Origin: Tetraselmis striata | Taxonomy: Eukaryota; Chlorophyta; Chlorodendrophyceae; Chlorodendrales; Chlorodendraceae | Reading direction: 5' to 3' | DNA length: 64,000 nt | NCBI GenBank assembly: GCA_006384855.1 | Contig: VCJN01001342.1 | Location: 62,001-126,000 of the forward strand | Shown: positions 964-31,143 of the stretch, one piece after another | Numbering within the stretch: the first letter of the stretch is position 1 | Layout: each line of letters opens with the position of its first letter | Translations under genes and position numbers: made by a program | Notes under the pieces: model-generated | What the model was told of the DNA's origin: nothing | The model's database searches: none | What the model saw: only the letters and a program-made list of their open reading frames with translations

Positions 964-1151
964 ATGATCTAAACTAGTTCATGGGGTTTCCCTCCTTGAC
1001 CTAACCGCTTCTTAGCTACAAGTGCTGCTCAGTGGTACGGGAACTAGGCATCTGTGGTTGCGCCCTTTTTGGGTGCAGCACGAGTAGACATAAAAGCAGC
1101 CAGAACAGCTGAGCCTGCCATCTTCCAGTTTTCGCTGCGTTCCACGCAGCG
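964..1151 (+). repeat. YR element 1, split repeat A1
   Basis: This block of about 188 bp begins ATGATCTAAACTAG and ends with the inverted words CTGCGTTCCACGCAGCG. It is repeated at 3880-4068 and twice in the second element, at 27,934 and 30,838. The short hairpin at its end could form a structured terminus. Confidence 0.85.
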
Positions 1152-2175
1152 ATGTAAAAACTGTCTCGTAACCAGTTGCGAGCAAGGTCACCCCAGGTTG
1201 TTCAAGACCACACCCGGCTCACCACCCGAGTGTGATATTCTCGTCCGTACGTCCGTGCGTTACCATGCCAGAGGGAGAAGAACCCGTCGCCGAGCCTACG
1301 TTGGAGTCGCTGAACGCAGATATGAGGGCCCAGTCTTCATTACTGCGAGAGTTAGCTACAGCTGTGGCACAATTGACGGCTCGTGATCGCGTTGTTGATG
1401 GGAAAGGGGCACATGGCTCCGGCTCCGGGCAGCGCTTCGCGGGACAGCCGACAGGCAGCGGGGGAGCCGCAGAGCGCCCCGACTTGCTAGAGCTAGCCCA
1501 GAGCGGCCGTGTCGGAGCAAAATCCGTGAGTGCCGAGGACGACTACCTCGCGGTGCCAGAACTACTGCAGAGAGCAGAGTCTGGTTACGAGGCCGTTCGA
1601 CCGGTCAGCCGAGTGCCTGGACTCTTCCCCCTGAGCACCGACCTAACGAACGAGTACCTCAAGCAGGACGACCGGCGTCTGCCGGCCCAGGAGGAGTATT
1701 TGTGGATGTCGTGTTTCGGGGCCCACATGGCCGCACTTTTCGTGGCTCTTGACGAGCTGCTACCTTACGTCCCTGCCGCTAACCAGGACTTCACCCCCTA
1801 CCTCGCGAGAGCTCGGAATCACGCCGAGGCCATCGACAAGGCGTTTCGTTTTCGTCTGGCTTTCCTGCGGAAGCTAAATGAGATCAAGCGTGTGCACGGT
1901 GACCAAGGTGTTCTGGACGTGCTGCGAGCCCAACATTTTCAGCTGCTTCGGAGCATCTGGGTTCCGCGATTTTTGGGGACCTCATGAAGGGCTACGAGCG
2001 TCGCGTCTTCGAGGCGACCGTTGCCAGCAGCGCAAAGGCAACCGCTACTGCCCGAGTAGCAGCTGCAGCTGCAGGTCGCGGGCGTGGGCGAGGACGTGGC
2101 GGCGGGCGTGGACGTGGCCGCGAAGGTGAGCACGACTGACGGTGTAGGGCGCCTTTCGCCGGAGCTGCTGGAGCT

Positions 2176-3801
2176 TTGCGAGGCCACCTTTCGGTGACCG
2201 CCGCAAGACGCACCCTTGCAGCACAACGGCGAGATGAGCGCCCTGTGTCAGGACCTGACCCCCCCACCTTACAGACTTCATTTAGACCTTCCTCGGTGCG
2301 GCGCTTCGTACAGCTACAGCCGAGCGCGGCTCAACCATCCGCACACCTGCACATGGCGGCTCAACCAACCGCCTCCCGTACCATTCCATCGCGGCGTCCA
2401 TCGGTTGTTACACTGCGTGTCACAACTGGTTCGCAACGACCAAGTTTCGCGCGTGTACGTTATGCACGGGACATGCGCTACGAGCGCGAAGGGCGCGCGG
2501 GGCGGCCATCTTACCTGAACCTAGCCCCGCAAACCCGTATTGAAGCTACTGCAAACCCGTCCAGCAGCTACCGGCCAACCGCCGAAAACCTAACCGCTGC
2601 TGCCGAGTACTTTGCGAACAGTAGTCGTACTGGTGGAACTCTGTCGGTAAAACGACGCACGTACGCAATTGACGAGCCCGCAGCTGTCGCTCCGCGGGCT
2701 GCGTCATTGCGATCCCGGCTGCAGGATGCGTTCGGCTCGGACGAGCTGGGCCAGCGGACGCTCGACCTGCTCTCAAGCTCCCTCAGCGCTCAAACACTCA
2801 AGAGCTACGCCGGCAGACTGTCTCAATTCGCGGAGTTCTGCCACGACTCCGAGAACATCAGTCCGCTGGAGGCGACTACTGCTACTGTCGTTCGGTATGT
2901 TGCCTGGATCGGGGAGCGAGGGCACATCGCAGCTAAGTCGCTGCAACCCTACCTGTCCGCAATGAACACGTTCTTCGAGCTGCACAACCTCGTCCCCATC
3001 GCCAAGGACAGTCTACACCTAACTTCAGCAAGGCGTGGGCTGATGCTGCGTCAGCGCCGGCTGGACGCTGCCCCTTTGCGTGTCCCTCTGCCTGCGGATG
3101 TAGCCTACCGCTTCGTCACAAAGGCCGAGCTAATTGTGTCTGCTCCTTACCCAGAGTACCACCCCGACTTCCGAGCCCTCTTGGCCTCGGTTGTCAACTT
3201 CATGTTCTTCGCCAGGGGCCTTACTGGCGTCTCCTGTCGAGTGCGAGATGTGCATGTCGACACCTACAACATCACCTTACAAGTGTACCGCGAGAAGGGT
3301 TGCGCTGGCCGACGGGGACCCGACGACCTACGCGTACTTCTCCTTCCGGTGTCCGAGCACCCTCGAGTGGCACGTCTCTTGCACCACTTCATCGACAACG
3401 TCCAATCTGTCCCCCTGGTTACTGTTGGCTTGGCTACATCAAACTTGTGGGCTGTCACTGCGGCCGAGCAGTCAAAACCTTGGACTGCGGCTACAATGTC
3501 AGACTGGCTGTCTGCAGCCATGAGTCTAGTCAACGCTGCCCCCCCTGCTGGCACTTCCTGGACTTCACACAGTCTTCGCAAGGGCGCAGCTTCTGCAGCA
3601 AACGCCATCGGAGTGCCATTGTCCCACATTCGCTACCAAGGCGGTTGGGCCACTAACTCTGACGTCGTTCTGGACTACATCGACCCCAACGTTCTTCCTT
3701 CACCTGGCGCATGGTTCTTCTTTGGACACATCGCGCCCCTCCGCCACTTCCAAGTCCAACAGGACTCCGCAGCGGTGGCCTTCCCAGTGCCTCCTTCATG
3801 A
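2176..3801 (+). CDS. tyrosine recombinase of YR element 1
   Basis: This encodes a site-specific recombinase that would cut and rejoin element ends through a covalent tyrosine intermediate. The first ATG of the open frame is at 2353, giving about 482 residues; the frame is open from 2176. An N-terminal core-binding region (Leu/Ser-rich, with the block SLSAQTLKSYAGRL) precedes the catalytic domain. There, an arginine lies in FFARGLTGVS, the H-x-x-R box reads HSLRKGAAS, a glycine-tryptophan block follows (YQGGWATNS), and the candidate nucleophile is in VLDYIDP. This R-H-R-W-Y order is the signature of DIRS, Ngaro, Crypton and phage-type recombinases. The second copy at 29,254-30,759 is very similar. 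Confidence 0.85.
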   Translation: MRGHLSVTAARRTLAAQRRDERPVSGPDPPTLQTSFRPSSVRRFVQLQPSAAQPSAHLHMAAQPTASRTIPSRRPSVVTLRVTTGSQRPSFARVRYARDMRYEREGRAGRPSYLNLAPQTRIEATANPSSSYRPTAENLTAAAEYFANSSRTGGTLSVKRRTYAIDEPAAVAPRAASLRSRLQDAFGSDELGQRTLDLLSSSLSAQTLKSYAGRLSQFAEFCHDSENISPLEATTATVVRYVAWIGERGHIAAKSLQPYLSAMNTFFELHNLVPIAKDSLHLTSARRGLMLRQRRLDAAPLRVPLPADVAYRFVTKAELIVSAPYPEYHPDFRALLASVVNFMFFARGLTGVSCRVRDVHVDTYNITLQVYREKGCAGRRGPDDLRVLLLPVSEHPRVARLLHHFIDNVQSVPLVTVGLATSNLWAVTAAEQSKPWTAATMSDWLSAAMSLVNAAPPAGTSWTSHSLRKGAASAANAIGVPLSHIRYQGGWATNSDVVLDYIDPNVLPSPGAWFFFGHIAPLRHFQVQQDSAAVAFPVPPS

Positions 3802-3854
3802 CTTGGCGCTACCTCTTCTCCGTCAATCCACCGCTCTCTCCGTTCGCTCAAGAC

Positions 3855-4185
3855 TGGCAAAACCAGACTCAACTTTGAAATGATCTAAACTAGTTTATGG
3901 GGATTTCCCTCCTTGACCTAACCGCTTTTTAGCTACAAGTGCTGCTCAGTGGTACGGGAACTAGGCATCTGTTGTTGCGCCCTTTGTGGGTGCAGCACGA
4001 GTAGACATAAAAGCAGCCAGAACAGCTGAGCCTGCCATCTTCCAGTTTTCGCTGCGTTCCACGCAGCGCCCCCCTGACTCCGTTTTCCCTCCACGCTTTC
4101 GCTAAACCATCCTGCCAATTTCGGCTCTTGACCGTGTAAAACAGCCTGCGCGACCTTTTTGGCAAAACCAGACTCAACTTTGAAA
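3855..4185 (+). repeat. YR element 1, B1-A2-B2 terminus
   Basis: This is the right end of the element. B1 (tggcaaaaccagactcaact and the next six bases, 3855-3880) is followed without a gap by A2 (3880-4068), then by about 90 bp unique to this end, and finally by a second copy of the same 26 bases (B2, 4160-4185). The second element has the same arrangement at its right end. Confidence 0.8.
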
Positions 4186-4205: not shown

Positions 4206-4515
4206 CTACTGGTTGGGCTTGCCCCAACTCGCATTACTCGAATGGGCCGACGCGCCAAAAGGGGTAGGGCGGCTGACCTTTCGTGGTCAGTGCCGGGTAT
4301 TTTCATGGCAGTGTTTTAGACGGTGATCCAACAGTGTTGGAAATTCCATCATTAGACTTCAATTAGTATTACAGAATGCATCGGCAATTTGCTGGATGAC
4401 TATAAATGAGCGTCGCCTACCCAGGGCTTTCCGTAACTTGATTGCTGCCTAGACGGCCGTCGTAGAGACGCTGCAAGGGTTTCACTGCCAGTCCTGTCCC
4501 GGGGGCGGGAAAACC
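4206..4515 (+). repeat. LINE 3' tail, copy 2
   Basis: This 5'-truncated copy of the LINE 3' untranslated region starts about 20 bp after the YR element and ends in the family-typical gggggcgggaaaacc. It aligns by eye along its whole length with 33,138-33,440 and 42,845-43,127, with scattered substitutions. Confidence 0.8.
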
Positions 4516-4779
4516 ACTCCTGGGTGCTCTACCCGCACGGTACTGGGGGGGTGCTGTTTGGGGGGGAGCAGGTGCATCATTCAGCACTGCTGTCACAGAA
4601 CGTATACCTGCATGCTTTCAATTCCTGCTGTATTATATTTCGCCAGTCAGTGAAAGCTGGCGGCATCACGCGGCGGACATTCCAGTGCTGCCCCCCGGCC
4701 TGCTGCCCCCGTTACATTGAACAACGCCATTGCCACCTTTGCGAAGTTCCAACGCCAGGACACGGAGTGAGTTTCCGTC

Positions 4780-7700
4780 ATGTGGTGCGGCACACGCGCG
4801 GCACTGGCCTGTTGGCTGGCGTTGCTGGCGGTCACGAGCAGAGTCGCGCTCGCGCAGTTGGCGGGAGGCACACGCGACGAGGATTGGCCCGACCCGCGCG
4901 AGGTGGACTGGAGCTGGCTCCTGGGCTCGGCCGCGACGTCCGCGGCGCAGCCGGACCGGGAGTTGCTCGCGACCGCCGGATCTTGGTGCCAGCCTGGCGC
5001 GGTGCCTCCCGGGTCGTGGGCGTGCCGGGAGGTCCGGCAGCCGGCGGAGCTGTGGGAGGCGCTGGCGGACGAGGAAGTGGTGGACATCCACGTTTTGTCC
5101 TCCCTCACGCTCGACACGACGGCGATCCCGTACGGCTGGCTGAACCGCACGTCGGATGTCCGGCTGCTGGGCGCAGAACCAGGAGTATCAGCGGAGTTCG
5201 TGGTGCCCAACTGGTCGCACTACCTATGGCTCGTGATGTACGGCTGGCTGCGGTTCGAGAACCTGCGGGTGGAGGGGCTGATGACCATGCCGCCGGATGC
5301 GTCCTCGCTGATTGTCTCCGACGATCAGGTTTGGGTCCGTAGTAAATGTTGAGCCCCAACCATTGAGCCCCGAATAATCAACACATTCAATTGACGCCTG
5401 TGGCCGTATCCTATCACCAGGTGTGGGTGGCGCAGACTCTGGCGGGCGTGTACTTCCCGGAGATGGAGGGCCGGCGGCAGCAGCCGGACGACGCGCTACT
5501 CACACAAGGCGGCTTTCTGACCAAGCGCTCGGGCCTTGTGCTCGCGGACTGCCAGTCGGAGTTCCGTTCCACGCTGGGCTCGTTCCTGCAGGCCGACACC
5601 CTGCGCGAGTTTTTCTGGATGGCGCACATGCTGGGCACCTCCATACACTGGCCCGCGCTCCCGTTGCCCGCTGTCGCATTTAAGCGGAAACTCGTCTTCA
5701 CGGATAGCTTCATACAGGTGGGGCCGCGCAAGCTCGGCTTTGAACAGCCTCTGCTTGGGTGGCGCAACGTTGCCCCGGCGGGCCTGTAGGGTCAGCCGAC
5801 ACTACTGAACTGCTAAAGACTACTGACGACGTGCCTCCCCTCAACGCAGCAAATCCGGCTGCACAACACGTCGCTCGTCGCAGTTGGAAACTTCCAGACC
5901 TCGGAGCTGGAGGAAGCGCCGCTGCACCTGGGCATCCCCCAGGAAACCTGCCAGACGATCGCGGGCGGAATCAATGGGAAGGACTACGTGGGTAACGTCT
6001 CGACGGCGTTCGACGGCTCGCCGTGCCTGCCGTGGGCTAGTATCAAGCTGGCCGGCGTCGACTTCTCAGATATCGAGGGCAACAGCTGCCGGAACCCGTC
6101 CGATCACGCTGGTAAGTGGGCGCGGGAAGGACGGCGATTGGCAAGCGCAGTATCGGTGCACGTCAGGGTGGCCTCCGCCTGACCTTGATGCTGACATCAA
6201 CAGTGCGTGTTGGCTCACAATAACATGCTTGCCTGTTGTATCCACTACTATAGGGGCATGGTGCTTCACAGCGTCCGCGCATACCATGGACAATACCGGC
6301 ACCATCGACGAGGACTTCTCCGCCATCCTGCAGGGCACCACCGGAGAGCTGGTCCCATACAGCTGGAAGTACTGCGGCATCCCGGAGTGCGCCGCCGCCA
6401 CCCACAGCACCTGCCAGCTTGCCGAGGGGAACGGCGAGCAGTACGCGGGGAGCGTCAACACCACCGTGGACGGGCAGCCCTGCCAGCTGTGGAACCAGAC
6501 GTGCGCCCCTCGCGATCCTGCACCCCAATAGGCGCACCCGCACGCCGATGCCACCCACTGCAATGCGCGACTGATGTCCGCACAGGGGCTGACAGGCTAA
6601 AAACAAGAATCGTGACGCCTGGGGGGGCAAACAACTGCAAGGACCTCGCCCACTGCGCCGCGCGAGGCCCTGGCTTGGTCCGCCTGACTTGCAGCGGGTG
6701 TCATCGCTGCGCAGGAGTCTGTACGACCGGGGCTCGGTCACCGAGCCCGTGTGCCGGAATCCCATGGGCGCTCGCGAGGGCGTGTGGTGCTGGACGGACG
6801 CTGCGGCCAACGAGTGGGGCTACTGTGGCGTTCCGGTGCGCCCAATCCTCACGCGGCGCTTTGACCTCAGCAGTGCCGCGCGCCCAGCGCGCTCCCATCA
6901 GACCCCATGTGACACACCGTCTGACCCTCCTGATGTTGCGGCAGGTGTGCACGGAGGCGGGCCTCAACCTGGCAGATCCTGACCAGGACCCAGAGGCGGA
7001 CATCATTGTTGGCCCAGGGACGGATGAGCAGGTGGCGCCGCTCCCACACTCGCCCAGCCTGCACTGCCCAACATCATGAGGGGGTGCGGGGCACTTTCGT
7101 GGTTATATATCGCAAGGGCGACCAAGCGGGTGAGGCTCATAAACACACGTTAGCTCACAACACGGGTAATGGCGCACCTTTAACAACACGCACCGCAAGC
7201 CTTAAATTGGGGTGGTATGCAAACCTGTCTGAAGATTAGCGCTCAAGTTCCGCTTCCCCTCTGTCAAGATCTGACCTCTGTATAGAGAGGGTGGGCTCTC
7301 ATTCAAACCACCGCGCCGGCACCATAAGGCTCATGGCAATGGAGTTTGAGAACGTGGCGAGTGTGCCAGTGACTGGCTCTGAGGTGGCGCTTTAATGACG
7401 TGCAGGATGAGGACGACCTCGCCGGTGCTGGCGATTCTGGAACGGGTATGGCGCCGCGCACGGTCGTGATCATAACCGCGTGCGCGTTTGGCGGCTTTGC
7501 ACTGTGCAAGACTGGGCTTTGTTTGGCGTGGCTGGCCATCCGGCGGCAGAGGATGCGGCGGAACCTTGTCCACTCTAACAACGGCCTCAAGGAGGAGAGC
7601 CGCCCGGCTCGCGCTAGTGGTCCCCGTGACAGGTGGCGACCCCCCCCCCCCCCCCCCTCCCGCGGCGGCCGTCACCTGCTTTCCCTGCGGCTGCACTCCG

Positions 7701-10700
7701 AGCTGACTCCTTAATAACACCGCACTGCCCCGCTGCCAGTTGCACCAGTGTGCCGCAAGGGACGTCCTCAAGCACGACCACCATGAATAGCCAGGTGATA
7801 GACCGCGCGGCCGCCTCTGCCCCCCACCCCCACCTCCCCCCCCAGCCCTACCATTGGCCGATTTCAGTGCATGCTCTCATGGCCTTGCAAGTGCCTCTCA
7901 ATGGCGCTGTTTGTGTCTTGATGTATTGCTATTGGATTTGTGCCCTATTGTGAAAGCAGAAGCTGGAAGGGTGCATGGAGGCACCGCCGCTGAGCGGCGA
8001 CTGGTCGATGGCAACCTCCATCCATCCGCTGCAGGAGATACGCGTGCAGAGCGTCATGGATGACACGGCCAATGGCGAGGTGGCTGTCCGCACCTACCTC
8101 CCGCCTCTGTGATGTCATGTTCTGTTCTGTTCTGTCCTGTCTTGCCATGACATGACATGTCCTGTCCTGTCCTGTGATGTGATGTCATGTCAATGTCATG
8201 TGTAGTGTCGTGTCGAGTCGTGTCATGTCATGTCATGTCAATGTCATGCCATATCGTGTGCCGTGTCGTGTCAATGTCATGTGTCATGTCATGTCATGTC
8301 ATGTCAATGTCATGCCATATCGTGTGTCGTGTCGTGTCAATGTCATGTGTCATGTCATGTCATGTCATGTCATGTCATGTGTCATGTCATATCGTGTCGT
8401 GACGTGCCGTGTCATGTCATGTCATGTCATGTCATGTCATGTCATGTCATGTCATGTCCTGTCCTGTCATGTCCTGTCCTGTCCTGTCATGTCATGTCAT
8501 GTCATGTCATGTCATGTCATGTCCTGTCAGGTCATGTCATGTCAATGTCATGTCATGTCATGTCATGTCATGTCATGTCATGTCATGTCATGTCATGTCA
8601 TGTCATGTCATGTCATGTCATGTCATGTCATGTCATGTCATGTCAATGTCATGCCATATCGTGTCGTGTCATGTCATGTCATGTCATGTCTTGTCACATG
8701 GCTGGGAGGGCCCACGTGGGCTGAGCTCCCCATGGCCTCTGCCCGTGCCACTACAGGGTGAACAGGAACCCGTGGCTAACTCGCCCTCCATGCTGAACGC
8801 CAACCCCGAGAACCTGGGCTACGTCCAGCTCGAGACGAAACTGGGAGAAGGCTCCTTTGGGCAGGTGCGCGGCCGGCAGGCGCCCCATTTCGCCACCGTA
8901 CTGCCCCCGCGGTGGTGTGCAGCGTTATCGGACAGGCACTGCGTTTTTGTCGTTTTCACTCACGGGATGAGCGAGGTAGAGATACCTCAACAATGTCCGC
9001 CTGCATTATCATTGTTCTTAGAACGCTGAAAATGGTGTTGCAGCCGCTAATGGTTTGAGGGGCTTTGACAGGGAGAGGCTGTGGGTTCCCATCTGTCATG
9101 TTTTAATGGGACCGCTGTGCTCAGGTGTGGCAGTGCAGGTGGGCCGGCAGGGCGGCGGCCTGCAAGATCGTGGACATGCGGGGGATGCAGCCCGAGCTGC
9201 GCAGCCAGCTGGCCGAGAGCACGGAGGCCGTGTACATGAAGAGCAGCGCGGAGCACCCGCACGTCGCGCGGGTCCTGCACGTCTACCATGTCCTGACCCA
9301 GCAGGGGGCTGCAACCTTGGGGAGGGGGGCCTACAGCCGCCCCGGCGACGGGCAGGAGCTGTGGATCGTGCAGGAGCTCTGCTCCATGGGCGACCTGGCC
9401 GCATTTGCCAGGGTGAGTTTGCTGGCCAGGAGACCCGTCCCCGGGCATGCAGACCCAAACACATACCCTTATATCTTTCTTGCAAACCCTAACTATGCTT
9501 TGGCTCCGCCATGTATCTTTGCTATATGTGGGAATCTACGGGTGCCGACGACTCACCTATAGGAACTCTTATACGGACCCTTATGATACCCCTCAAATCG
9601 GGCTTGCATGCAACCTGTAGGACTATTGGCCACAGCTCCGCTACAGCTTTGTCCACATTTGACCTCTGACATCTCTGGCAGGTTCTTATTCGCAGCGTTG
9701 TCCCCACCGCATCGGCGCTTGTAGAGTACACCTCGAATGTCGGGCGGAACCTGTGACCCAATAATGCAACCCACGAACCGATTTATATGTTTTGGTAGGA
9801 GGGAAGTGGGGGGGCGGGGGGGTTGGGGGGGGGGGGGGGGGGGGGCTAATCTCTGTCATGCGCGCAATACATGCGCTGCAGAAGTTGTACAGCAAGCCAC
9901 GAAACAACGAGCACTACCTCGTGATTCTGGACATCCTGCGGGAGGTCATGCTGGCCCTGAGCTTCCTGCACGACAACGGCATCGTCCATGCCGACCTGAA
10001 GCTGGACAACGTGTTGCTCCAGCCCAGCGGCGCCTGCGAGAAGGGCTTTGTGTGCAAGGTGCGGCCGGCCATCCTCGCCGCCATCGTGAGCCCGGGGGTC
10101 CGGACAACGCCACGGATGGCTGATGTCAACACTGGTTCTGGCGCTGGTGCCAGTGCCCATGCTGGCCTCCATCCTCGTCCTGTCCCCACTCGAGGATACC
10201 TGCGATGGCATTGTGGATGCCGGCGCACCCATACAAATCCTGGTTAAAAGCCTCATATAATTGGGATTGCATGCAACCTAAAGAAACTTTACTTGAAGCA
10301 TTCCCCGTAGTTCCGCTCCAGTTTTGTCTGCGTCTGACCTCTGGCAGGCAGGGCAGGCTCCTCTTCGCAGTGTTCTCCTTACCGCGCCCGAACCCGTCCT
10401 TCAGCTGATCATCCTGCCACGCCTTGAATGCTCATCGCACCGTGCGTGTGGCTGCCCAGGTTGGGGACTTTGGCGTCTCCCATGCTCTACTGGGCCGCGA
10501 CTACTACTACTCCAGCTCCATGTCAGGTGAGGACTCCCCCCCCCCCCCCCCCCCCCCCCCGCCCCCGGGTTCATTGGCGCACTTGGCTTGTCGCGCCTGG
10601 TTGCCAGCTTTTGACCCATTGCTGCGGGCTGCCCCCGCAGGCGAGGTGCGCATCCTGGCGCCGGAGGTCCTGCGCGAGAACAAGATATCGGCAAAGATGG

Positions 10701-11716
10701 ACACCTTCAGCTTCGGGGTCCTCATGCACGAGCTGTACTGCCCAGTGCCGCCCGGCGCCGTCAGGTGCGTGCTGCCGCGGGGCCGATGGCTCGCCGGCGC
10801 CGCCGGTCCGTCATGTAGCCGTGTTGAGGGCGTTGACCCATGGCATGGGTTGGCTGAATGCGGTGTGCGGGGGATGTGCCAGGGACACGTTTCCGGTGGC
10901 CTGCACCAAGACGCTGGGCGGAGAGCGGCCCCTGTTTCCGGCTGACACCCCTCCCGCCTTCAAGGTGCCCCCCCCCCCCCCCCCCACCGCCTGAATCCCC
11001 ACCCTTTCTTTCCCCTGTTGCTAGGCTGGGCGAGGTATACGGTCACTTGTCTCTGGTGTGAAACGCGCACCGATTCATGCCCAGAGGTTGGTGTTCTAGC
11101 ACCCATGTTGCCGGCCATGCCGTTTTGATCGCCGGACAGAGATTTCTAGGGCAGCATGCTAATCTACATTAGGGCTTGTCAGGGTTATGATGAGTTTCAG
11201 CACGCAAAACTCAAAAGCCCGCCCGGCAGGACTGACGCCCTCGGAGTCCGCGAGGTCAAATAAACGTGCCAGAACCTTGACGTTCTGTAGGCGGTTAGGG
11301 GAAGAAGCTTAGCTAGGATGTGACCTTATCCCCTTAACTGCTGAAGCACCATCAGATATATTCATATCACCTGAATCTAATAAAAACCTTGGATACCGGC
11401 GCAATGAGCCCCGGAAGTCATTCTGACCCCAAAACTATGGCTTAAACTGACAAAGTTTCGACTAGGTTATGGGCGGCTGACCTCAATCAAGGGACCCCAT
11501 CCCTCGGTCGGCCTCTTCATGTTCTGTATGATCGCATGCATGGTTGGTCCCGTCCGGGAGCCATGCTGGCACCTGACGTCCTTGCCTCGATCTGGGCAGG
11601 CCCTAGCGGAGCTGTGCTGGGCGGAGGACCCCGAGAAGCGTCCTGCGGATGCGGACATCATCCGGCAGCTGCAGGCAATGCGGCGCGGTGCGACCATGGA
11701 TCACAGCGGCCAGTAG
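4780..11716 (+). CDS. kringle-domain receptor protein kinase, 16 exons
   Basis: Predicted single-pass membrane receptor kinase of 972 residues. Exons: 4780-5328, 5421-5717, 5850-6111, 6254-6500, 6715-6835, 6945-7031, 7406-7632, 7749-7794, 7960-8079, 8757-8864, 9125-9412, 9882-10058, 10460-10526, 10641-10764, 10883-10964, 11600-11716. All introns are GT-AG and the phases close exactly. Residues 1-25 form a signal peptide. Residues about 140-300 have alternating short strands resembling a parallel beta-helix. Kringle 1 (about 316-415) and kringle 2 (about 423-494) each keep six cysteines and the CRNP and WC motifs. The transmembrane helix is 540-566. The kinase (about 675-965) shows GEGSFGQ, a VAIK-type lysine (ACKIVD, 702), HADLKLDN (catalytic Asp 822, non-RD), DFG 846-848, APE and a C-terminal CWAEDPEKRP block, which favours a serine/threonine TKL kinase. 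The small exons 8 and 9 are least certain. Confidence 0.85.
8112..8697 (+). repeat. pentanucleotide (TGTCA)n microsatellite in an intron
   Basis: About 590 bp of TGTCA/ATGTC repeats, with interspersed CCTGT and CAATGTCATG variants, fill most of the intron between exons 9 and 10 of the kringle kinase. Because the unit is five bases, all plus-strand frames stay open here and give spurious long Cys/His/Val-rich frames. Higher-order copies of a longer unit (a block with atgccatatcgtgt) recur near 8245, 8312 and 8650. Confidence 0.95.
9590..9705 (+). repeat. dispersed intronic repeat, copy b
   Basis: A short element of about 120 bp in the intron between exons 11 and 12 of the kringle kinase. It begins with a GCTTGCATGCAACCTGTAG block and ends near TCTGGCAGGTTCTTATTCGC. 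Similar sequences lie in three other introns at 10,250-10,375 (plus), 24,775-24,905 (minus) and 25,655-25,775 (minus), and a weaker copy at 7190-7300. All read in the sense direction of their host gene. Confidence 0.55.
10250..10375 (+). repeat. dispersed intronic repeat, copy c
   Basis: This lies in the intron between exons 12 and 13 of the kringle kinase. It shares with copy b the start (GGGATTGCATGCAACCT) and end (GACCTCTGGCAGGCAGGGCA, then a TCTTCGCAG box). No terminal inverted repeats or target duplications were identified. Confidence 0.55.
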
Positions 11717-11835
11717 CCGTGGGGCTGTGCCGCAGCGCGTCGGTGGCGCGTTGGGCGAAGCATAGCGCCTTCCCTGCCCGGGGCATGCGACCTCTTCCGG
11801 TGGCACAAGTACATATCTGTGACCCGATCATATAC

Positions 11836-11840
11836 TGTAA
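11836..11840 (+). promoter_or_regulatory. possible TGTAA polyadenylation signal
   Basis: TGTAA lies about 120 nt after the kringle kinase stop codon. In chlorophyte algae this pentamer is the usual poly(A) signal. A five-base match is weak on its own, but a second TGTAA lies at a similar distance after the kinesin stop. Confidence 0.35.
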
Positions 11841-12690
11841 ACAGCAACACATGCACTTACTCAAAAACCGACCCGTTGACACGCCGTACTCAACAGCACC
11901 TTCAGCGCATCTATTACAAGGGTGCATTGATTGCGGTTGCGGTGCATTCGGTACGTGCGATGAGTTTGCATGGCTGGAGTTGCACCCATCAATTCTTCCC
12001 TTGCGTTATGCGCCACCTGTGGGAGAGCATTGGGCGTCCATGCGCGTCAATGGCACGGCTTGCAGCGCGGGGAACTTGCGCGTCTTATCCGACTCCACAT
12101 GCCACAACCTGCCGCCTTTACACGTCCTTTTCACAAGGAAGCTTCCTTGGCTCCATGTCATCAGCGGGATTAACAGCGGCATGTCTCACCAAGGGGCTCA
12201 ATGCCGATTATGTGGTAGTAGTGTGGCTGGGTCTGCGTGCCAGCATGCTGTTCATTCTATGTTCACCAGGCAGGTTCAGCAGGCACTTTACACGTCACCA
12301 GCTCCAGTAGCAAGACCATTTCACGAGATTGCTGAACAGTTTTGCCCCAGCGGGTGGAGGCGCCCTAGCATGACCTTATGGTTGGGGCAATCTTTGTATT
12401 CGTCTGCGCCTCTGCGGCGGCACAGGGCATCAGCCCATGGGATGGGTCCTCGTGCCAATCAACAAGTGCTAGTATCAAACCCACCGCAAAAAGCAGTGCT
12501 GGGAGATCAACACAATCTGCGTAAAAGCGGCCCACAATAATCCGCATCAGCACGAGTTTAGTTTGAGTGTCGGTGCGCGCCTCGAGAGATGGCGGCGTGG
12601 GTACTCGTACGGGGCAGTACGACCCGTACATGATCTCGTACCCCTACTCGTACTATTTTCGCGTAACGTACTACTAACATAGGTAAAGGT
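11841..12690. other. no gene recognised
   Basis: The plus strand is open for about 1 kb in one frame from 11,536 to 12,540, but that frame is out of phase with the kinase's last exon, has no recognisable domain and shows no coding-like composition. Nothing else is seen apart from a GTAC-rich low-complexity patch at 12,600-12,680. Confidence 0.5.
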
Positions 12691-13300: not shown

Positions 13301-15270
13301 ACCCCTGCTGTGAGGGTTAAAGATATCATATCATGGTAATCTATTGCTAGACGGCAAACAATGCAGCATTCACCTCACATAACAAATTGCAAATGACGAC
13401 ACAAGATAGTTGTGCGATGTTACATTGCCTATTGAGGCAGCACCACATAAACTATATTGACTCGATATATGATGGCATCATATGTCGGGGTGCTGGGGGT
13501 GTCACGGGCGATGTCTACCCCTGCTCAAAGAGCCCATCATTACCCTGAATGGTTTCAAGCAACGCACCCTTGACCATGTTAAACACATCATGATCATATA
13601 TAGTTTTCGAGCAAACACACATTCACATGATTGCAGAACAACTGAGCTTGACCACAGTTTCATGTTTGCGGCGGGAACCGTGACCCTTTCGTTCTTGCCA
13701 CTCGGTTAGTTCATGCGCTCCACATGGCAGGCAGTGGGGAGCAAGGCAGTAGTACACGCAAGGCTGGGGGCGAGCCGCACGCCATTTATCATGACAGTCT
13801 TATAAAAAAAGCCAGTTTTGGTAATTTCTGGTAAAATACGACAAGTTTATACCCCCAAAGAAATAATAATAATGCACTGCTGGCGGCAATCGTAGGCAAT
13901 CCGGTGAAGATCGTATAGGTAAACGTTACTCGTACAGCCGCGGGCGGGCCCGCTGAATAAACCCTGTTTATAATTAATGAGCTAGCAGCAGAAGGCGATA
14001 TATCAGCAGGAAACCCTGTTTATCACCCCCGTAGATATTCAGCAATTATTTACTACGACAGTTATTACTATGAGTTATTACAGTTAATTTTGGTAAGCCC
14101 TAGTGTAAGGGTGCTGTTGCGACCGGCGATATACAGGGTAATCAGAGAGGCACATCGGCGGCAACCGTATGGGCCACACCGCAAAACTCATGCTTTGCTC
14201 ACTCCCTATCTATCTCCCATACTGTTCCGCGTACAGTCGCTAGGTACTGGTAGAAGTACGCGCGACTGCTTTATTATTATTCCGACACCATCGGGCGCGC
14301 GGCACTGCGGAACTGCTGCTCACCGGCCTGGCTGGCGTGCCAGCCGGCGGGCGGGGCGCGGCGCCGGGGCGTGTGGACGGTCAGCACATCACCGTTTGTG
14401 GAGGGACTGCACCGTCCACTGTATTGGTGCCGCGGCTAGTTTCTAGCCCCTGCTCATCGATCCACCCGCCTAAACACTCCCCCTCTGCTCGCTATAACAC
14501 TTGCCGCACTGCGTGCACCGTGTGGCATACGTGGTCGCCGCACGCGCGCGTCACTGGCATCCATCCGAGTGGCGGAGCGAGGGGAAGGGAGGACGCGGAA
14601 AACCCCCGTTGGACCGCGTGCCCCCCAGAGCCTCACTGCCAGTACTCGGGCAGCGAGTTCGAAGCTCGCCCCACCTTGCGCCCCACGAGCTCCGGCATCG
14701 CCCTTGCTGCCCTAGGACTTCTGCGTAGCAGGTGAGCTCGCCCGGGGCCCCGGCTGATCAGCCGCTCTCGCCCCCCCCCCCCCCCCCCCCCCCCCCCTTT
14801 GGCTTCCCGCAGCGGCAGCCGAGCGCGTAGCGGCGCGGGTTGTTTTCTTTAGGATCTTCCGCGGTGGCCGAATCGGACACCGCCCGCCGCTGCCAATCGC
14901 CCCTTCCCCCACGCCATTTAGAGTTGGACAGCCTGTCCATCAGGTGGCGCTGTCCTGGCGAGAGCTGTCTGTGTGTTGGGGGGGGGGGGGGGGGGGGGGG
15001 GGCATTGCGTGAGGCTGTATGCCTGAAGCGAAGACTGAAGTCCACTTGCACTGCAGGCAGCCTTGCACAGAAACTCCACCCCGTTTTCCCGATCAGAATC
15101 TGCACTGGCGTTTGCAAGACCCATCTTGCGCGAATCGTCTCTCCATAGGATGTGCGAGCTGGCTGGCTGGCTGCTTAGGCTGGCAGTCAGCTCGCCATGC
15201 TGACCTCCGCGTCCTTGACCCTCCCCGTGCCCTTGCGCCCCGACCATAGGCGGCAGGCAGGCAGGCAGGC
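13301..15270. other. no gene recognised; two homopolymer tracts
   Basis: No exon chain is convincing. A cysteine-containing open frame at 14,337-14,735 has no recognised domain. Long C (about 14,770-14,797) and G (about 14,979-15,002) runs lie here; elsewhere in this window such runs are typical of introns, so an unrecognised transcript or 5' untranslated introns of RABL2 are possible. GGCAGGCAGGCAGGCAGGC precedes the RABL2 ATG. Confidence 0.4.
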
Positions 15271-15946
15271 ATGGCGGAGCGCGGCAGCGCGGCGGCAACG
15301 AGCACGTCGGACGGGCCGCAGGGGGAGGAGCTGAGCCTGCTGACGGGCAGCAACGCGGTGAAGGTCATCCTGCTCGGCGACTCGGCCGTGGGCAAGTCCA
15401 AGCTGGTGGAGCGCTTCCTGCTGGACGGCTACCGCCCGCACCAGCTGTCCACGTACGCGCTCACGCTGTACCGGTACGACCACCCGGCGCCGGACGGGCA
15501 GACCGTGGCGGTGGACTTTTGGGACACCGGCGGGGCAGGAGCGCTTCAACAGCATGCACCCCTCGTACTACTACAAGGCGCACGCCTGCATCATGGTGTT
15601 CGACGTCACACGCAAGGTGACGTACAAGAACCTGGACAAGTGGTGGGCGGAGCTGCAGGAGTACTGCAAGGGCATCCCCACCATCGTGGTCGCCAACAAG
15701 ATAGACATCGACTACAAGGTCACCTCCAAGAACTTTGCGTTCGCCAGCAAGCGCAAGCTGCCCTTCTTCTTCGTGTCCGCCAGCGACGGCACCAACGTCG
15801 TCAAGGTGTTCAGCTCCGCCATCATGGCGGGCCTCAAGCGCAAGGAGGCCCCCAAGGACGACTTTTACAACGACGTGCTGGACCTGCTCGGGGAGATCGG
15901 CACCGACCTGCACCCCGACGGCGAGGAGAACGCGCTGGATGCGTGA
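15271..15946 (+). CDS. RABL2: RABL2, Rab-like small GTPase (one frameshift)
   Basis: Rab-like 2 GTPase that, in GTP form, is recruited to the ciliary base by CEP19 and promotes entry of intraflagellar transport trains. The P-loop GDSAVGKS is at residues 36-43, followed by KLVERFLLDGY and QLSTYALTLY, which are close to animal RABL2. The G3 region reads VDFWDT, then a one-base gain (about 15,529-15,536) shifts the frame. The shifted frame continues with GQERF-equivalent sequence, SMHPSYYYKAHACIM, NKID and VSASDGTNVVK to a stop at 15,944-15,946. Without the extra base the product would be about 224 residues, near the human length of about 228. It is intronless, unlike its neighbours. Intact sequence on both sides makes an assembly or sequencing error likelier than old decay, but a recent retrocopy is possible. 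Confidence 0.88.
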
Positions 15947-17758: not shown

Positions 17759-19940
17759 TCAGGTGGGCCACTCAAAGTCGTCGTCGGCGCCCTCGTCGTC
17801 CGAGTCGTCGTCGTCCCAGTCGTTGTCCTCCGTGGGGTTGAAGTCCTTCTGCACGTCGTACTCGAACTCCGGGTCGTCAATGGACACGCGATTCTTCCGG
17901 AATTGCACGTCCATGGCCGCCTGCGTGCGGACCAAAGATGGGTACCGGAGGCCCGGGGGGGGGGGGGGGGGGGGGGGGGAGGGGACATGAGCAAGGGATG
18001 GGACCGCCCTGAGCCCGTCCGCGCCACTTCAATTGGGCCTGACCAGTCTCAGCTCAAGCAGTGACCAGGACATGGGGTGTTTCACGAATTATGTTGCTGT
18101 AGCTCCAATCAGTACGCGCCAAACCCCGGTCTATGCCTTGGGGATGAACGGGGCTGTGCCCAGTTGGAAGGGGCCGCAGGCATGAGCCTCACACGGCGGC
18201 GCCATTGGCGGCTCCGGAATCGTGTTGGGGGGGGGGGGGGGGGGGGGGAGGCTTCGGCCATTCTCGGTGTTGCGGCAGTTGGCGCAGGGTGCCTAACCCC
18301 GCGCCCAGGTGCATGGGGGTGAACGCGCGGGTGGGTAAGAGTCTACGTGGGGGCCTGGCCTACACTGCGAAGAAGAGCGCCTGAGGACGGATAGACCCGG
18401 GCGTGACACACGCGAGAGCCCGGAGTGTTGGTTTCCGCTGAATTCAGGCCCGGCAGAAATCGAGGCGGAAATTGCCTGACCTGAATTCATCCTGGACTCA
18501 GGCCGGAGTACACCTGACTTCACTCTGGAGTGGAATTAATTCTGACTGAATTCTGGAACTGAATTCCGAAATTCAGTGCCCACTGACTTGAAAGCCTCCC
18601 AACCAGCTTGCGGGCAGCCAATGCCCTCCCCCCCCCCCCCCCCCCCTCGCCACCTGCCGCTTCACCTTGAGCGAGTTGAGCTCCCGGTCGGACAGCTTGT
18701 TGGCGTCCACGTCCGCGTCCGCGATCGAGTCCACGCTCATGCCAAACGACTCCCCGCTCGCCGGCTCCACCGGCTTGGCTGCCACCACCGGCGTGCGCCG
18801 CGCGGCGTCCTTGCCGTTCAGGCTCAGCGGCTGCAGCTTCGCCAGCCTGGGCGCCGGCGCGGGCGGTGGCTGCGCCGGCGCGCCATCCAACGACGCCACC
18901 AGCTTCACCACCAGCCGCCGTATCTGCGCGCGGGCCCGGCGCAACCACCCCGCCAGTCAGTCCGGGCAGGTCTAGGAGGGGCCTGCGGGGAGCTGCCGGT
19001 GACTGCGCCGGCGAGGGCGGCACTGGCATGGGTCGGGGCATGTGTGGGCGCGGACCTGGTCCGAGCTGACCGACCGCCGGTCGAGCTTGCGCGGGAAGCT
19101 GCGGATGATCTTTTGCGTGAGCCTATCTACGTCCGTGTCATGCTGCACGTCCTGCACCTTGACCTGACGCAGGGGGGGGGAGGGTCAAAGGGTCATGAGC
19201 ACTGGTAGCCCCCCCCCCCCCCCTCCCTCCTCCATCGCTGTCAATCCCCACTCTACCTCCCCCAGCTTGGTGGAGCCAATGAGCCACAGCCATTGCCGCT
19301 GCGCACTGCCCATTTGCCAGGCAGGGAGGCAGCTGCCTAGCACCATGGGGGGCGACAGCTGCGGTGAGTGGAGTCATGGCGTCAGTGCTGTGCTGTGAAC
19401 AGTCTGCTGTGGACTTCTGGGTGGCATTGCGGTCGGCGCAGAGCCGCGCCGCTGTTGGCTCGAGCTGCCGTAGCGGCATATGGCAATGCCCGGAACCAGC
19501 CATGATGCAAGCAGCAGATAGCGCTCTCTCGCACCTACGGGATCTCCCGCTACCCCCCCCCCCCCCCCCCTCTCTCTACTTCTCTCTACTTCTACACCTG
19601 CCTCCCTACCCCTCAAAGGAGCGCATCCTTTGGCTGTCGGAGAGGCCCGCCATGGCCGAGAGCGGCCAGTCTCGCATCGTGGCACGGAGGCTCGCAGCTG
19701 TCTGGACGGAATCGTCAGCACATACTGCGATGTCGAGGTTCTGTGCATCCGCTGCCTGGGGAGAATGGGAACAGAGGCTTGGGGGGGGGGGGGGGGGGGG
19801 GGGGGGTGGGCAGGAAGGTTGGGGGGGGGGTCGCTCACCGAGCGCAGCCGCTTCTCCTTCGCCGGCGTCTCGTACTCGAGTATGATGGTTGGCGGGTCAT
19901 ACTTTATTGCGTAGCGCCGCGCCTTGCACAGCGCCGCCAT
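17759..19940 (-). CDS. CEP19: CEP19, centrosomal/basal-body protein, 4 exons
   Basis: CEP19 binds the FOP/CEP350 complex at the mother centriole or basal body and recruits GTP-bound RABL2 to launch intraflagellar transport. Exons in transcript order: 19,940-19,839; 19,163-19,056; 18,923-18,654; 17,920-17,759, all phase 0 with GT-AG introns, giving 213 residues (human about 165). The start ATG is at 19,940. The N terminus KYDPPTIILEYE parallels human RFQPPAIILIYE. Exon 2 carries DVDRLTQKIIRSFPRKL. Exon 3 ends in ADVDANKLSDRELNSLK, matching the human EEDLNKLDDKELAKRK region. Exon 4 contains DDPEFEYDVQKDF, matching human DDPNFVYDIEVEF, and then a very acidic tail. The extra length is an Ala/Pro linker in exon 3. 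Introns hold long G or C runs. It is convergent with RABL2, 1.8 kb away. Confidence 0.88.
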
Positions 19941-21112
19941 GCCCCCGCGCCTCGCAGCCCGCCAGCCTGCCCACAGGCGCGAGCCGGGGGAGAGGCGCGC
20001 CGCCCAGCTGAGGTCGCACGCGGGCGCGCCGCAATACTGACGCCGCTGTTTTTCCCAGCCGCTTCCGGAGCGCGCCGCGGTGAGAGCAGCAGCAGCTCGG
20101 CAGCCCTGCGCGACTCCAGCCGCGGCTGACTTGGTCTGTCCCTGCCCAGCGTCCAGGAGACTCCCAGCACGCGCGGTAGCGTCGTGAGGAGCGTGCGCGA
20201 ATAACCGGGGGTGGTCTAAGCGCAGGATAACTGCTGCCGTTTGTTGGGGCGGGAGACCGTGCGCGCGTACGTGCTGCAGGCCGGCGGAACGCGGCGACTA
20301 CCGCCAGCAATAACTGCAATTTGCGCACGTCGTCGTCGACTAAAATCCCGCGCCTGATGCGTATAGTATTCGTCAAATAGTCGCTATATAGTCGTTAGTC
20401 GCTGTCGTAGCCTGTACGGGTAGTAGCGACTAGCTCTTCACCGTCTTTATTTACGAGTCTTTATTGCGAAAGTGCCCGATCATTCGTACGGTAGCATATC
20501 ATCCGTCATCAACAAATCCTGGCGGTCAAATTTACCTTATTATTCTCTCTGCGCGCGTGTAATGTACGAACACTCTGAAGGCGGTACGGGTTACACGAGC
20601 GACCAATACGCTCCCGCGCGCGCCCGCAAGTCCGTGTTGGTGTTCCAGCACCAGGCAGAATCGTACAACTCCGCGGACAGGCGATGCGGCGCAGACGACG
20701 GCAGCTTGTTGCGGCCATCTTGAGCCTGCGTTGACGACCGTCGTGGCAGTGCGCCTGTACGGGAGCAGCAATGCATGAACGAAATATATACCACCTTTAC
20801 CACAGAGTCGCTACACATCGATCGTATCGACAAGTTTTGCACAGCTCAATTTACTCGTAGTTTTGTGTGGCTTACCTGCCTAGCTCACCATTAATCGTGG
20901 CACGTTTGAGGGGATAAGAAACAGCTGCGCGAGCAATTAATCTCGGCGCTGGCATTGCGAACAACTGATGACAAAGGTGGCAAACTCTTGACTCTTGGTT
21001 ACATGCAGCTTTGCCGCAACGGCGAAGTTAGGGAATGCGGCAATAATAATTCGGAACCCGCGTCACCCACACTTGGATAGCCATGGTGATGTTCCGACCC
21101 GGTACGTCCGGC
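19941..21112. other. intergenic region, no gene recognised
   Basis: This holds the CEP19 5' flank and the kinesin 3' flank. Around 20,370-20,460 it is rich in TAGTCGCTA-like words, a low-complexity pattern seen also at 38.2-38.6 kb. No exon chain, RNA gene or inverted-repeat element was recognised. Confidence 0.5.
20999..21003 (-). promoter_or_regulatory. possible TGTAA polyadenylation signal
   Basis: On the minus strand TGTAA lies about 110 nt after the kinesin stop codon, similar to the spacing after the kringle kinase. Position and motif fit a chlorophyte poly(A) signal, though a pentamer alone is weak evidence. Confidence 0.35.
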
Positions 21113-24100
21113 TCAGGTGGCAAGGGCTGACTGCGACGTGTTCCGGCTCAGGCTCGTTTGGCTCGCCGGCGACGCGGTTCCGCTGGCGGCCGACGCGCTC
21201 GCTTTGCCGAGCTCCACCTTGGAGGCCCTCGCGGCAAAGTTGAGCGAGCAGAGCGTCTCGCCCGCATTGGTGGACGCCGGGGAGCAGTTGACAAACATAA
21301 GGACCTTGGAGTTGCCGCCCAGCGAGTCCTGCAGCAGGTGCGTGAGCTTGGAGTTCCGGTACGGGATGTGCTTGGAGCGCTGCTGCAGCGCGGCGATCAC
21401 GTCGCCCAGGGAGCTCAGGCTCTTGTTGATGTTCTGCGCCTCCTTGAGCCGATCGCCCGTGGCGCCCGTCTTGCTCAGCCTCTCGCTTCCGGCGAGGTCG
21501 ACGAGGTGGAGCTTTCCGGTGGTCTTTGCCCCACTGGCCCTGGACCGTGAGGGACGTGTCAGCTCGGGCTCACACTTGGGCTACTGAAGCACCCGAGTTA
21601 TCAGGGTGGCAATCACAGGAATGCAACCAAGTACCAGGGGCTCGCGGCAATCGTACCTGTTGGCGCATGTGACGTAGACGGAGAGGACCAGGTGAGACCG
21701 TGATGAGTGTTCGTTCATGTTGGTGGCAAAGGTCGAGCGGTTGGACTGCAGTGCCGGCATCCCGAGCGTTAGTGTCTGGGCGGTGTGCATTGACAAGATG
21801 GCACGAACCCCGCAGTCATTTCACCGCGGGGGGGGGGGGGGGGGAGGGGATGTATGCACACCTTGCCCGTCTGGAGGGTGGCCTGCACCGCCGTCATGTC
21901 CGCCACCTCGCGGATGGAGAGGCCATCTACCGGCGACAGACCCTCCCACTGCGCGCGCACAGTGAGGCTCTCCCTCGCGCCGGACAGCAGGTCCTTCACG
22001 TCCTCGTTGTAGATCTCCAGGACGCTGGTGGAGACGCTGATGTCGAAGTCCTCGGCCCGGGCGGTGGCGAGGTCGAACAGCTCTTGCAGGGCGCGCGTGT
22101 TGACGCCGGGATCGGACGGCGGCCCCTGTTGACGCAGCCAAGACCCACACTGAGGCACAAGGTAGGCCCCGAGCAAGCATGCCGTCCTGCGCAATGGCAA
22201 CGCAGCCTACTTGCGCCCCGGCTACCCAAGCATGCCGCCCTTTGACGCCTTGATGGCAGCAGGGGCGCGCACCTCCATGGTGTGCGTCTTTCCGGAGCCA
22301 GTCTGGCCGTAGGCCATGATGCAGCAGTTGTAGCCATCGATGACGCTGGTCACCAGAGAGCTGACCTCACTGCCAACATCATGGCACAAGTTTGACTCAG
22401 CCAGGGGGAGCACATGAAGGCAGTGTCAATATGCCCCCCCCCCCCCCACCCACACACACACACCCGGCCTGCGTGCGAGGCAGGAGGGTCCTGGCAGGCA
22501 GTACCTGTAGACGCTCTCTTGCGAGTCGCCGGCGTCAAAGCAGCGGTTGAACTCGAACTCCTTCTCGGCGCCCTTCTCGGTGAGCAGCTGGATGCACTGT
22601 TCGTCCACCACCGTGATGGCGGACTGCGCCGCGTCGGCCTGCTCCTTGGAGCTCAGCGGCCGCACTCGGCACAGCACCCTGATGTTCCCCTTCAGCTCGA
22701 TCAGCTGCGCAAGACAGCGCACACTGGTCAGTGTCTCTGCGCTGTGAGGGCATGTGATGCTGCGCGGAAGGAGTCGTTTGTCTAGATGCCGTTCTCAGGC
22801 TTCAGTTTCGATGCATCTACATCCCCATCTACATACACACCAACACCTACGTATGCATATACATTTGACCCCTCTACAGGAAGCAACACTACACTGCTCG
22901 TACCTGGTTGTGCAGCGCCTTCCGCCTCTCGTGCTCCTTCCGCCACTTGTCCTTGGCCGCGTCCGCCGCGGCAACCGCCTGCGCCAGCTCTGCCGCAAAC
23001 CTCCGGCGCGCCTCCTCCTGCGCGGCGCCCTCGATCTTCTTCTGCAGGGAGGCCGCGCCGTGCAGGGCCCGCTCCATGAGCACCCCCCAGCCGTCAGGCG
23101 ACACCATCTCCGCAAAGGCCTCCGCGTCGGCGGTCACTGCGTGCTGAAGCTTCTTCAGCTTCTTCATGTGATGGTGGACCTCCTTCTTGCAGGCCGCCGA
23201 CGCCTGCAATGCGGCACAACCAGGTATCAGCCAGCCAGAGCCGTTGGGGGTCGACGTTGCGCCGATGGCACAGTCAGTCTGATAGATTGGCAGTGGGAGC
23301 CACAGGGCCCCATGTTTAAGTACTGCGCCGGAACTAAAATTGCAATAACCGGCGTTACGGCCATGCGCCAGCATTGCGCCTGAAAGGCCGGAACATTATA
23401 CATGTATACGTGGAGTTGCAGCCCGGCGACGAGCATACGCTCCGGGCAGCAGCCAGCGGCGGCGGCCCGTGAGTTGTAACATCCTGTAATGTTCCGGTAA
23501 CGCCGGTTTTCTTTCAGAAATGGGGGCCAATGTGGGGCCGTACGTGGCTCCCATTACCAATACCTAGGGCTGACAGTAGCGGCGCGAGGGGCAACATCAC
23601 GAGCAGATCCCCCGCGATTGCTCATCAACGTTTTGTCGCCCCGAAATGGGGCAAGCCGGTGAAGTGGTGCAAACGGAAGCAGCGCACCTCCGCCCGATTT
23701 GCTCCCGCCTTGGCTTCCTTGTCCTGCACATAGTGGGCACCCATCATGTCAGAGCTCAGCCGCAACAAGACACGCGTGCCCGTAGCGGCAGCGGGCGTCG
23801 GCGAGAGTCCAGGCGGGCAGGCGCGCACCTGCAGCAGGCCGTCCATCATCCCAATGGTGTTCTTCTGCGCCTCCAGCTGCGCCGTCAGCTCCTGGATCTG
23901 CTCGTCCTTCCTCGCCAGCGCCGCCTGCGTGTCGGCCGCGCTGGCGGGCGGCGTGCTGGACAGCGCCTCAAGACGCTGCTGCAGCCGCTGCAGGTCCGAC
24001 TCCGCCTGCTTGTGCTGCTCCGCCAGGCGCTGCATGTCCAGGTCAGCCTGGTCGGCATCGCGGTCCGCGCTCTCCACCTCTTTCTGCGTGGAGGAAGCAG

Positions 24101-24401
24101 CAGCCAATGAGTCGCCGACAACGAAAGTTGAAATCCGTCACCGCGCGGGCAGGGCAGCAGAGGGCAGCAGCGTGTATCAGCCACCCCACTCGGGCCTGGC
24201 GCACCTGCAGCTCCGAGATCGTCCGGTCCTTCACCTGCAGCTGGGCGCTCAGCTTCTCGCACTCCTCCTTCCAGAAGCCCGGCCCCTGGGAGCTGACGCT
24301 GTCGTAGACGGCCTTGCCCTGGGGCGCACCGGCACGCGCTGCCGCCAGCTCTTTCTGCAGCTGCTGCACCACTGTCGGGGAGCCCTGGCGCGAGGAGGGG
24401 C

Positions 24402-24432
<31 letters not shown>

Positions 24433-27760: not shown

Positions 27761-28233
27761 AGAGCTTGGTCGTCACTGCATATTCGTACCGGTGCTGTCT
27801 CATCTCGTAATAAAGACGCAGTGATTCAGTACCGGGCTACGTCGCGAATCGAATGAGGACCTGAAAAATGGGCCAACGTGCGGATAGGCGGGCTGGTCCC
27901 AGCTCTCCTAGGCCGTCTGTCCGGATTAGGAGTATGATCTAAACTAGTTTATGGGGTTTCCCTCCTTGACCTAACCGCTTTTTAGCTACAAGTGCTGCTC
28001 AGTGGTACGGGAACTAGGCATCTGTTGTTGCGCCCTTTTTGGGTGCAGCACGAGTAGACATAAAAACAGCCAGAACAGCTGAGCCTGCCATCTTCCAGTT
28101 TTCGCTGCGTTCCACGCAGCGATGTACAAACTGTCTCGTAACCAGTTGCGAGCAAGGTCACCCCAGGTTGTTCAAGACCACACCCGGCTCGCCTTCCGAG
28201 TGTGATATTCTCGTCCGGACGTCCGTGCGTTAC

Positions 28234-29089: not shown

Positions 29090-29253
29090 CGGTGTGGGGC
29101 GCCTTTCGTCGGAGCTGCTGGAGCTTTGCGAGGCCACCTTTCGGTGACCGCCGCAAGACGCACCCTTGCAACTCAACGGCGAGATGAGCGCCCCGTGTTA
29201 GGGCCTGACCCCCCCCCCCCCCCACTTTACCGACTTCCTTTAGACCTTCCTCG

Positions 29254-30759: not shown

Positions 30760-31143
30760 CTTGGCGCTACCGCTTCTCCGTCAATCCACCGCTCTCTCCG
30801 TTCGCTCAAGACTGGCAAAACCAGACTCAACTTTGAAATGATCTAAACTAGTTTATGGGGTTTCCCTCCTTGACCTAACCGCTTTTTAGCTACAAGTGCT
30901 GCTAAGTGGTACGGGAACTAGGCATCTGTTGTTGCACCCTTTTTGGGTGCAGCACGAGTAGACATAAAAACAGCCAGAACAGCTGAGCCTGCCATCTTCC
31001 AGTTTTCGCTGCGTTCCACGCAGCGCCCCCCCTGACTCCGTTTTCCCTCCACGCTTTCGCTAAACCATCCTGCCAATTTCGGCTCTTGACCGTGTAAAAC
31101 AGCCTGCGCGACCTTTTTGGCAAAACCAGACTCAACTTTGAAA

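Follow-up and report, generated by a model that had tools for sequence, protein, structure and literature searches.

A complete-looking gene for a kringle-bearing receptor kinase, probably algal, predicted in a 64-kb genomic window

Gene model and coding evidence

The window analysed here is the whole 64-kb stretch of contig VCJN01001342.1 from position 62,001 to 126,000, and at 4780-11716 on its plus strand lies a gene for a kringle receptor kinase that, judged from the sequence, looks complete and is probably algal. Sixteen exons joined across 15 GT-AG introns, whose splice sites were picked by eye and then verified by script, form a single open frame, and the resulting coding sequence (CDS) of 2,928 nt encodes 975 amino acids plus a stop at 11716, with no internal stops. 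The introns are 92-677 nt long and five of the 15 have GTGCG donors. One uninterrupted 16-exon frame had already been described in the original prediction; its exon count, start and end agree with those found here, while its length of 972 residues is corrected to 975.

The GC content of the CDS at codon positions 1, 2 and 3 was 0.63, 0.49 and 0.85, against 0.57 for the introns overall, and the value at the third position (GC3) lay between 0.72 and 0.95 in all 16 exons. The exons were also scored with the codon frequencies of neighbouring genes, using a training set of 1,094 codons from 12 segments of a RABL2-like gene, CEP19 and a kinesin gene. The proposed frame outscored both alternatives in each of the 16 exons, and the null fraction was 0.026 or lower in 13 of them, with exons 7, 8 and 13 weaker (0.055, 0.10 and 0.09). 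The exons and two further features of the locus are listed below.

4780..5328, plus strand: exon 1; initiator Met, a stretch resembling a signal peptide (hydrophobic residues 7-25) and the opening part of the unassigned ectodomain
5421..5717, plus strand: exon 2; unassigned ectodomain, from the gene model and codon usage
5850..6111, plus strand: exon 3; end of the unassigned ectodomain and kringle 1 cysteines 1-3 (Cys 316, 341 and 362)
6254..6500, plus strand: exon 4; kringle 1 cysteines 4-6 (373, 410 and 415) and kringle 2 cysteines 1-2 (423 and 446)
6715..6835, plus strand: exon 5; kringle 2 cysteines 3-5 (465, 477 and 489)
6945..7031, plus strand: exon 6; kringle 2 cysteine 6 (494) and an acidic stalk
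7406..7632, plus strand: exon 7; membrane-spanning segment (core 541-559), then basic RRQRMRR; null fraction 0.055
7740..7794, plus strand: exon 8; juxtamembrane, Ser/Thr-rich; the weakest exon, null fraction 0.10
7960..8079, plus strand: exon 9; juxtamembrane; null fraction 0.0075
8108..8696, plus strand: satellite in intron 9; 589 bp with 114 TGTCA copies, filling most of the intron between the juxtamembrane and kinase exons
8757..8864, plus strand: exon 10; start of the kinase domain, glycine loop GEGSFG (685); null fraction 0.0185
9125..9412, plus strand: exon 11; kinase N-lobe, Lys of ACKIV (703-707)
9882..10058, plus strand: exon 12; catalytic loop HADLKLDN (823-830)
10460..10526, plus strand: exon 13; DFG motif (849) and activation loop; null fraction 0.09
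10641..10764, plus strand: exon 14; APE motif (LAPEV, 874) and DTFSFG (889)
10883..10964, plus strand: exon 15; kinase C-lobe, from the profile match and codon usage
11600..11716, plus strand: exon 16; end of the kinase (CWAEDPEKRP) and stop codon
11836..11840, plus strand: TGTAA, putative poly(A) signal about 120 nt past the stop

Domains of the predicted protein

A Pfam search of the whole 975-residue protein (E value up to 1) returned the kringle and protein kinase domains alone. The Kringle family (PF00051) matched in two stretches with an E value of 1.4e-20 and 73.8 bits, and each kringle taken singly lay above the curated cut-off of 34.3 bits (44.9 bits for kringle 1 over profile positions 5-70 of 79, and 49.7 bits for kringle 2 over positions 3-79). 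Both contain six cysteines in kringle order, at residues 316, 341, 362, 373, 410 and 415 and at residues 423, 446, 465, 477, 489 and 494, and the CRNP, WC and YC..P.C signatures of kringles are present, so that the two six-cysteine kringles proposed earlier are upheld by the profile search. They share 43% identity, kringle 1 carrying an insertion of about 25 residues between its fourth and fifth cysteines. Searched against the PDB, the kringle pair gave 90 matches, and the best 60 included plasminogen (6.5e-36), HGF (4.2e-25) and prothrombin (9e-17), each value being summed over stretches, with 9.1e-9 for the best single plasminogen stretch. For kringle 1 alone, the top 60 of its 83 matches included HGF (1.1e-19 as a sum over stretches), plasminogen and ROR2 (8.7e-7). 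The statement that kringles are known mainly from animals agrees with the solved structures listed (plasminogen, HGF, prothrombin, apolipoprotein(a) and ROR), in a database that is itself animal-heavy.

The lysine site of plasminogen kringle 1 is made up of Arg117, Asp137, Asp139 and Arg153, as given in an excerpt of PMC13375477. Kringle 2, when aligned to plasminogen, differs in having Met and Ala in place of the Asp pair (at Asp137 and Asp139, respectively) and Glu at Arg153, and the Arg that lies opposite Arg117 is inside a poorly aligned loop. Kringle 1 retains at most one Asp of the site, depending on gap placement. By alignment, then, neither kringle has a plasminogen-type lysine site with its Asp pair and Arg residues, and since the Asp pair is missing, lysine binding in the manner of plasminogen is not expected. 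The kringle of uPA has no typical lysine site, yet has affinity for heparin (same excerpt of PMC13375477), which makes glycan binding conceivable for the kringles described here.

The kinase domain was matched by PK_Tyr_Ser-Thr with an E value of 4.8e-36 at residues 678-961, over the whole profile (1-258 of 258), and this family scored 124.8 bits against 121.7 bits for Pkinase (4.6e-35). All of the motifs looked for are intact, namely GEGSFG (685), ACKIV (703), HADLKLDN (823), DFG (849), LAPEV (874), DTFSFG (889) and EKRP (949), and the domain thus has the glycine loop, the Lys, the catalytic Asp and Asn, the DFG and the APE of a full kinase. The arginine of HRD is replaced by alanine in HADLKLDN, giving a non-RD loop. 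DLKxxN is the Ser/Thr form of the catalytic loop, and a non-RD kinase has no need to await phosphorylation of its activation loop. The full-profile match and the motif check bear out the original prediction of a complete non-RD kinase domain with a Ser/Thr-form loop. Its assignment as TKL-like is reasonable by profile; among the best 60 of its 847 PDB matches, tyrosine kinases and CTR1 lay at much the same distance (PTK6 at 8.1e-22, CTR1 at 3.3e-21 and FAK similar).

Signal peptide and membrane helix were called by hydropathy alone. The top two 19-residue hydrophobic stretches of the protein were residues 7-25 (signal) and 541-559 (membrane), placed where a receptor requires them and as had been proposed, and the third peak (799-817) fell within the kinase domain. 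The basic sequence RRQRMRR directly follows the membrane segment, and six N-glycosylation motifs, at residues 122-450, all lie on the predicted outer side. A signal peptide-like start, a membrane helix and a kinase are therefore found together in one predicted frame. The 289 residues that precede the kringles gave zero matches in Pfam (E value up to 10), NCBIfam (up to 1) and the PDB (up to 10), and a single-sequence, alignment-free structure model of exon 1 had a predicted local distance difference test score (pLDDT) of 41, too poor for a fold search; the probable beta-helix once suggested for this region found no support in these searches.

Comparison with known systems

The predicted protein shares with the ROR receptor tyrosine kinases their familiar layout of an extracellular kringle, one membrane pass and an intracellular kinase, and the match of kringle 1 to the kringle of ROR2 is a further likeness. 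It differs from them in having two kringles and a Ser/Thr-form loop, HADLKLDN, in place of the loop usual in tyrosine kinases, and neither a Frizzled nor an Ig domain was matched in Pfam with E values up to 1. Of the PDB structures matched above, those of plasminogen, HGF and prothrombin come closest to the kringle pair; no protease domain was detected here by Pfam, again up to an E value of 1. On the kinase side, the plant RLK/Pelle and Raf-like TKL kinases are represented by the match to CTR1, and the predicted single-pass layout is also that of the RLKs, whose ectodomains are commonly LRR, lectin or LysM and not kringle.

According to an excerpt of PMC8226300, C. reinhardtii has over 30 genes that encode SRCR and/or C-type lectin domains, and kinase domains are encoded by 575 of its genes. 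The SRCR and C-type lectin proteins, in which a green alga carries extracellular modules resembling those of animals, are comparable to the present one, and differ from it in that the kringle is not mentioned in that excerpt. Since such genes are known, an algal animal-like receptor is surprising by its module and not in kind.

Domain databases may list kringles for some algae, and a study of reteplase reportedly produced that recombinant drug in Tetraselmis. The open-licence literature that was searched yielded no description of a kringle protein native to algae or of a kringle-kinase fusion, and no native algal kringle protein is described in the excerpts of PMC8409312 and PMC12716839.

Intron phases and the origin of the kringles

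An excerpt of PMC3927616 places animal kringles among the class 1-1 modules of exon shuffling, the rule for such modules being that phase 1 introns flank the domain on both sides (excerpts of PMC8001218 and PMC3927616). In the gene described here, exon 3 begins in phase 0 and codes for 33 residues before kringle 1 reaches its first cysteine, while the border between the two kringles falls inside exon 4 with no intron between them. The introns that cut the kringles do so at different places and are of phase 1 in kringle 1 and of phases 2 and 0 in kringle 2. Neither kringle has phase 1 introns at both flanks, and the phases and positions found argue against a recent capture of an animal-type kringle exon. 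It must be set against this that loss and gain of introns since a capture could also explain the pattern.

The independent assembly of this receptor, as first suggested, is plausible on the basis of the intron phases and the kinase type. A broader proposal, on which our judgement is finely balanced and leans slightly to the negative side, is that green algae built kringle Ser/Thr receptor kinases separately from animals, with no exon shuffling of the animal kind, and that these sense extracellular-matrix proteins or the proteins of a partner cell. If this is true, kringles have been put to use as receptor modules in a lineage other than that of animals, and a second recruitment of the kringle to cell-surface signalling would be implied. 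An algal kringle pair on a Ser/Thr-type receptor kinase, with no phase 1-1 boundaries, would suggest that the module predates exon shuffling or escaped it. It would also extend by the kringle the animal-type sensing domains known from algae and would provide a concrete receptor for ligand testing.

Searches for relatives

Four scans of viral contigs, using the kringle pair, the kinase, a kringle alignment and the N-terminus, found no relatives. Among prokaryote genomes 23 stretches matched a search pattern, and one of these (L001) passed tblastn. We rejected this 43-residue stretch as a kringle: it is antisense to a longer open reading frame, which we take to resemble an L,D-transpeptidase, it is without most of the kringle cysteines, and PF00051 was silent in that genome. 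When PF00051 was run over 398 genomes of the same phylum, presumably Pseudomonadota, there were no matches above the cut-off and one weak match below it (1.8e-4); 14 control genomes were also silent and there was no positive control, so that little is shown by this result. Within the 64-kb window no convincing second kringle gene was found, the best other match, near 40.8 kb, having an E value of 0.84 (0.46 with a local two-sequence kringle profile). The tRNA and Rfam searches found nothing.

Neighbouring genes

The RABL2-like GTPase gene (15250-15943, plus strand) and CEP19 (17762-20033, minus strand) are convergent neighbours. The former matched the Ras and Roc families of Pfam, with Ran as its best PDB match, and we take this Ras-family GTPase to be RABL2-like; in the latter, PF14933 matched one piece at 3e-8 and another at 0.02, which is short of the cut-off. 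RABL2 and CEP19 are cilium genes whose products are known partners at the ciliary base. The presence of both as neighbours makes it probable that the organism is ciliated, and their pairing may represent functional synteny. At 15527-15531 two overlapping frames divide the Ras domain of the RABL2-like gene between them, which suggests either an assembly indel or a damaged copy. A kinesin gene lies on the minus strand at approximately 21131-26230, its extent having been estimated from coding-like segments. The motor-domain end (4.2e-47, with KIFC3 as the closest solved motor) is at the low-coordinate end of this minus strand gene, which indicates a kinesin of the C-terminal motor type.

Proposed function and alternative explanations

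We consider it probable, from the predicted protein and its neighbourhood, that the gene encodes a receptor-like Ser/Thr kinase of type I that crosses the membrane once, that its host is a ciliated alga, probably a chlorophyte, and that the kringles bind an extracellular protein or glycan. The N-terminal domain and the kringles would lie outside the cell and would bind a secreted protein, or a protein or glycan of the wall or matrix, the kringles acting as protein- or glycan-binding modules rather than as plasminogen-type lysine traps. Binding of the ligand would lead to clustering of the receptor, and the intracellular kinase would then phosphorylate Ser/Thr targets and, being non-RD, could do so without prior phosphorylation of its activation loop.

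The kringle and kinase halves likely belong to one gene and one transcript. The alternative is a pair of neighbouring genes, one for a kringle protein that is secreted or anchored in the membrane (exons 1-6 or 1-9) and one for a cytosolic kinase (exons 10-16), with the division falling at, for example, intron 9. It appears unlikely to us, although the 589-bp TGTCA array in that intron is a possible dividing point, reading through exon 9 hits a stop after 11 codons (the frame runs from 7954 to 8112), exon 10 contains a Met ahead of the glycine loop, and the codon scores of exons 7 and 8 are only moderate. Several of our own controls also weaken the case for a single gene. With ends fixed at 7406 and 8864, no more than three introns and nine consensus-like donors among 154 GT sites, 687 open splice chains are possible across the linker (exons 7-10), 378 of which enter the kinase frame. 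With so many chains an open frame in this region proves little and it is uncertain exactly where exons 7-10 begin and end, and the open linker frame was dropped as an argument for one gene. The 12 codon training segments had themselves been bounded with a score trained on the receptor, and five of the 12 were scanned with Pfam (all five matched). TGTAA is the chlorophyte poly(A) signal, and on the plus strand it is absent between 4135 and 11836, the next copy following about 120 nt after the stop. This argument is weak: the motif is missing from the gene's antisense strand as well (gap 4712-11914), and when the gene was simulated with a Markov model, 7% of trials had no TGTAA. What speaks for one gene is that the two halves share a strand and have compatible phases, that the membrane segment with its basic flank lies exactly between ectodomain and kinase, that exons 9 and 10 are coding-like (null fractions 0.0075 and 0.0185) and, weakly, that beyond the first half the plus strand has no TGTAA until 11836.

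Two other explanations concern the host and the condition of the gene. The host might be some other GC-rich ciliated protist, such as a close relative of animals, in which the kringles may be shared vertically with animals; this is compatible with a receptor kinase, and we think it improbable. No plastid gene was seen among the 20 frame pieces of the window scanned with Pfam (the window holds 257 frames of at least 100 amino acids), and RABL2, CEP19 and kinesin are widespread in ciliated eukaryotes. The GTGCG donors at five of the 15 introns, the GC3 of 0.85 and the TGTAA after the stop, in contrast, are features in which the gene presumably resembles chlamydomonad genes, and the kringles without animal-style phase 1 intron borders and the Ser/Thr-form kinase loop also speak against such a host. 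Less credible still is a decaying or assembly-damaged gene, no longer expressed, beside mobile elements. A dispersed repeat ends at 4513, about 270 nt ahead of the start codon, a tyrosine-recombinase element occupies 964-4185, several introns contain long runs of C and G, and the nearby RABL2-like gene is split over two frames. Decay is difficult to reconcile with 975 codons free of stops and frame breaks, with the GC3 of 0.72-0.95 in every exon and with the intact state of all the kinase motifs looked for.

Mobile elements and repeats

The tyrosine-recombinase mobile element is present in the window as two 3.2-kb copies that are 93% identical (964-4185 and 27934-31143). It is presumably DIRS-like, and it has a direct repeat of 189 bp (964-1151 and 3880-4068) and an integrase SAM-like domain (7e-8). 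The dispersed repeat was found at 599-764, 4211-4513, 33142-33444 and 42847-43118 and is thus located on both sides of the first copy of the element, an arrangement that would fit insertion of the element into this repeat. Just past the second copy, at 31315-32052 on the plus strand, lies a reverse transcriptase (RVT_1, 1.5e-19).

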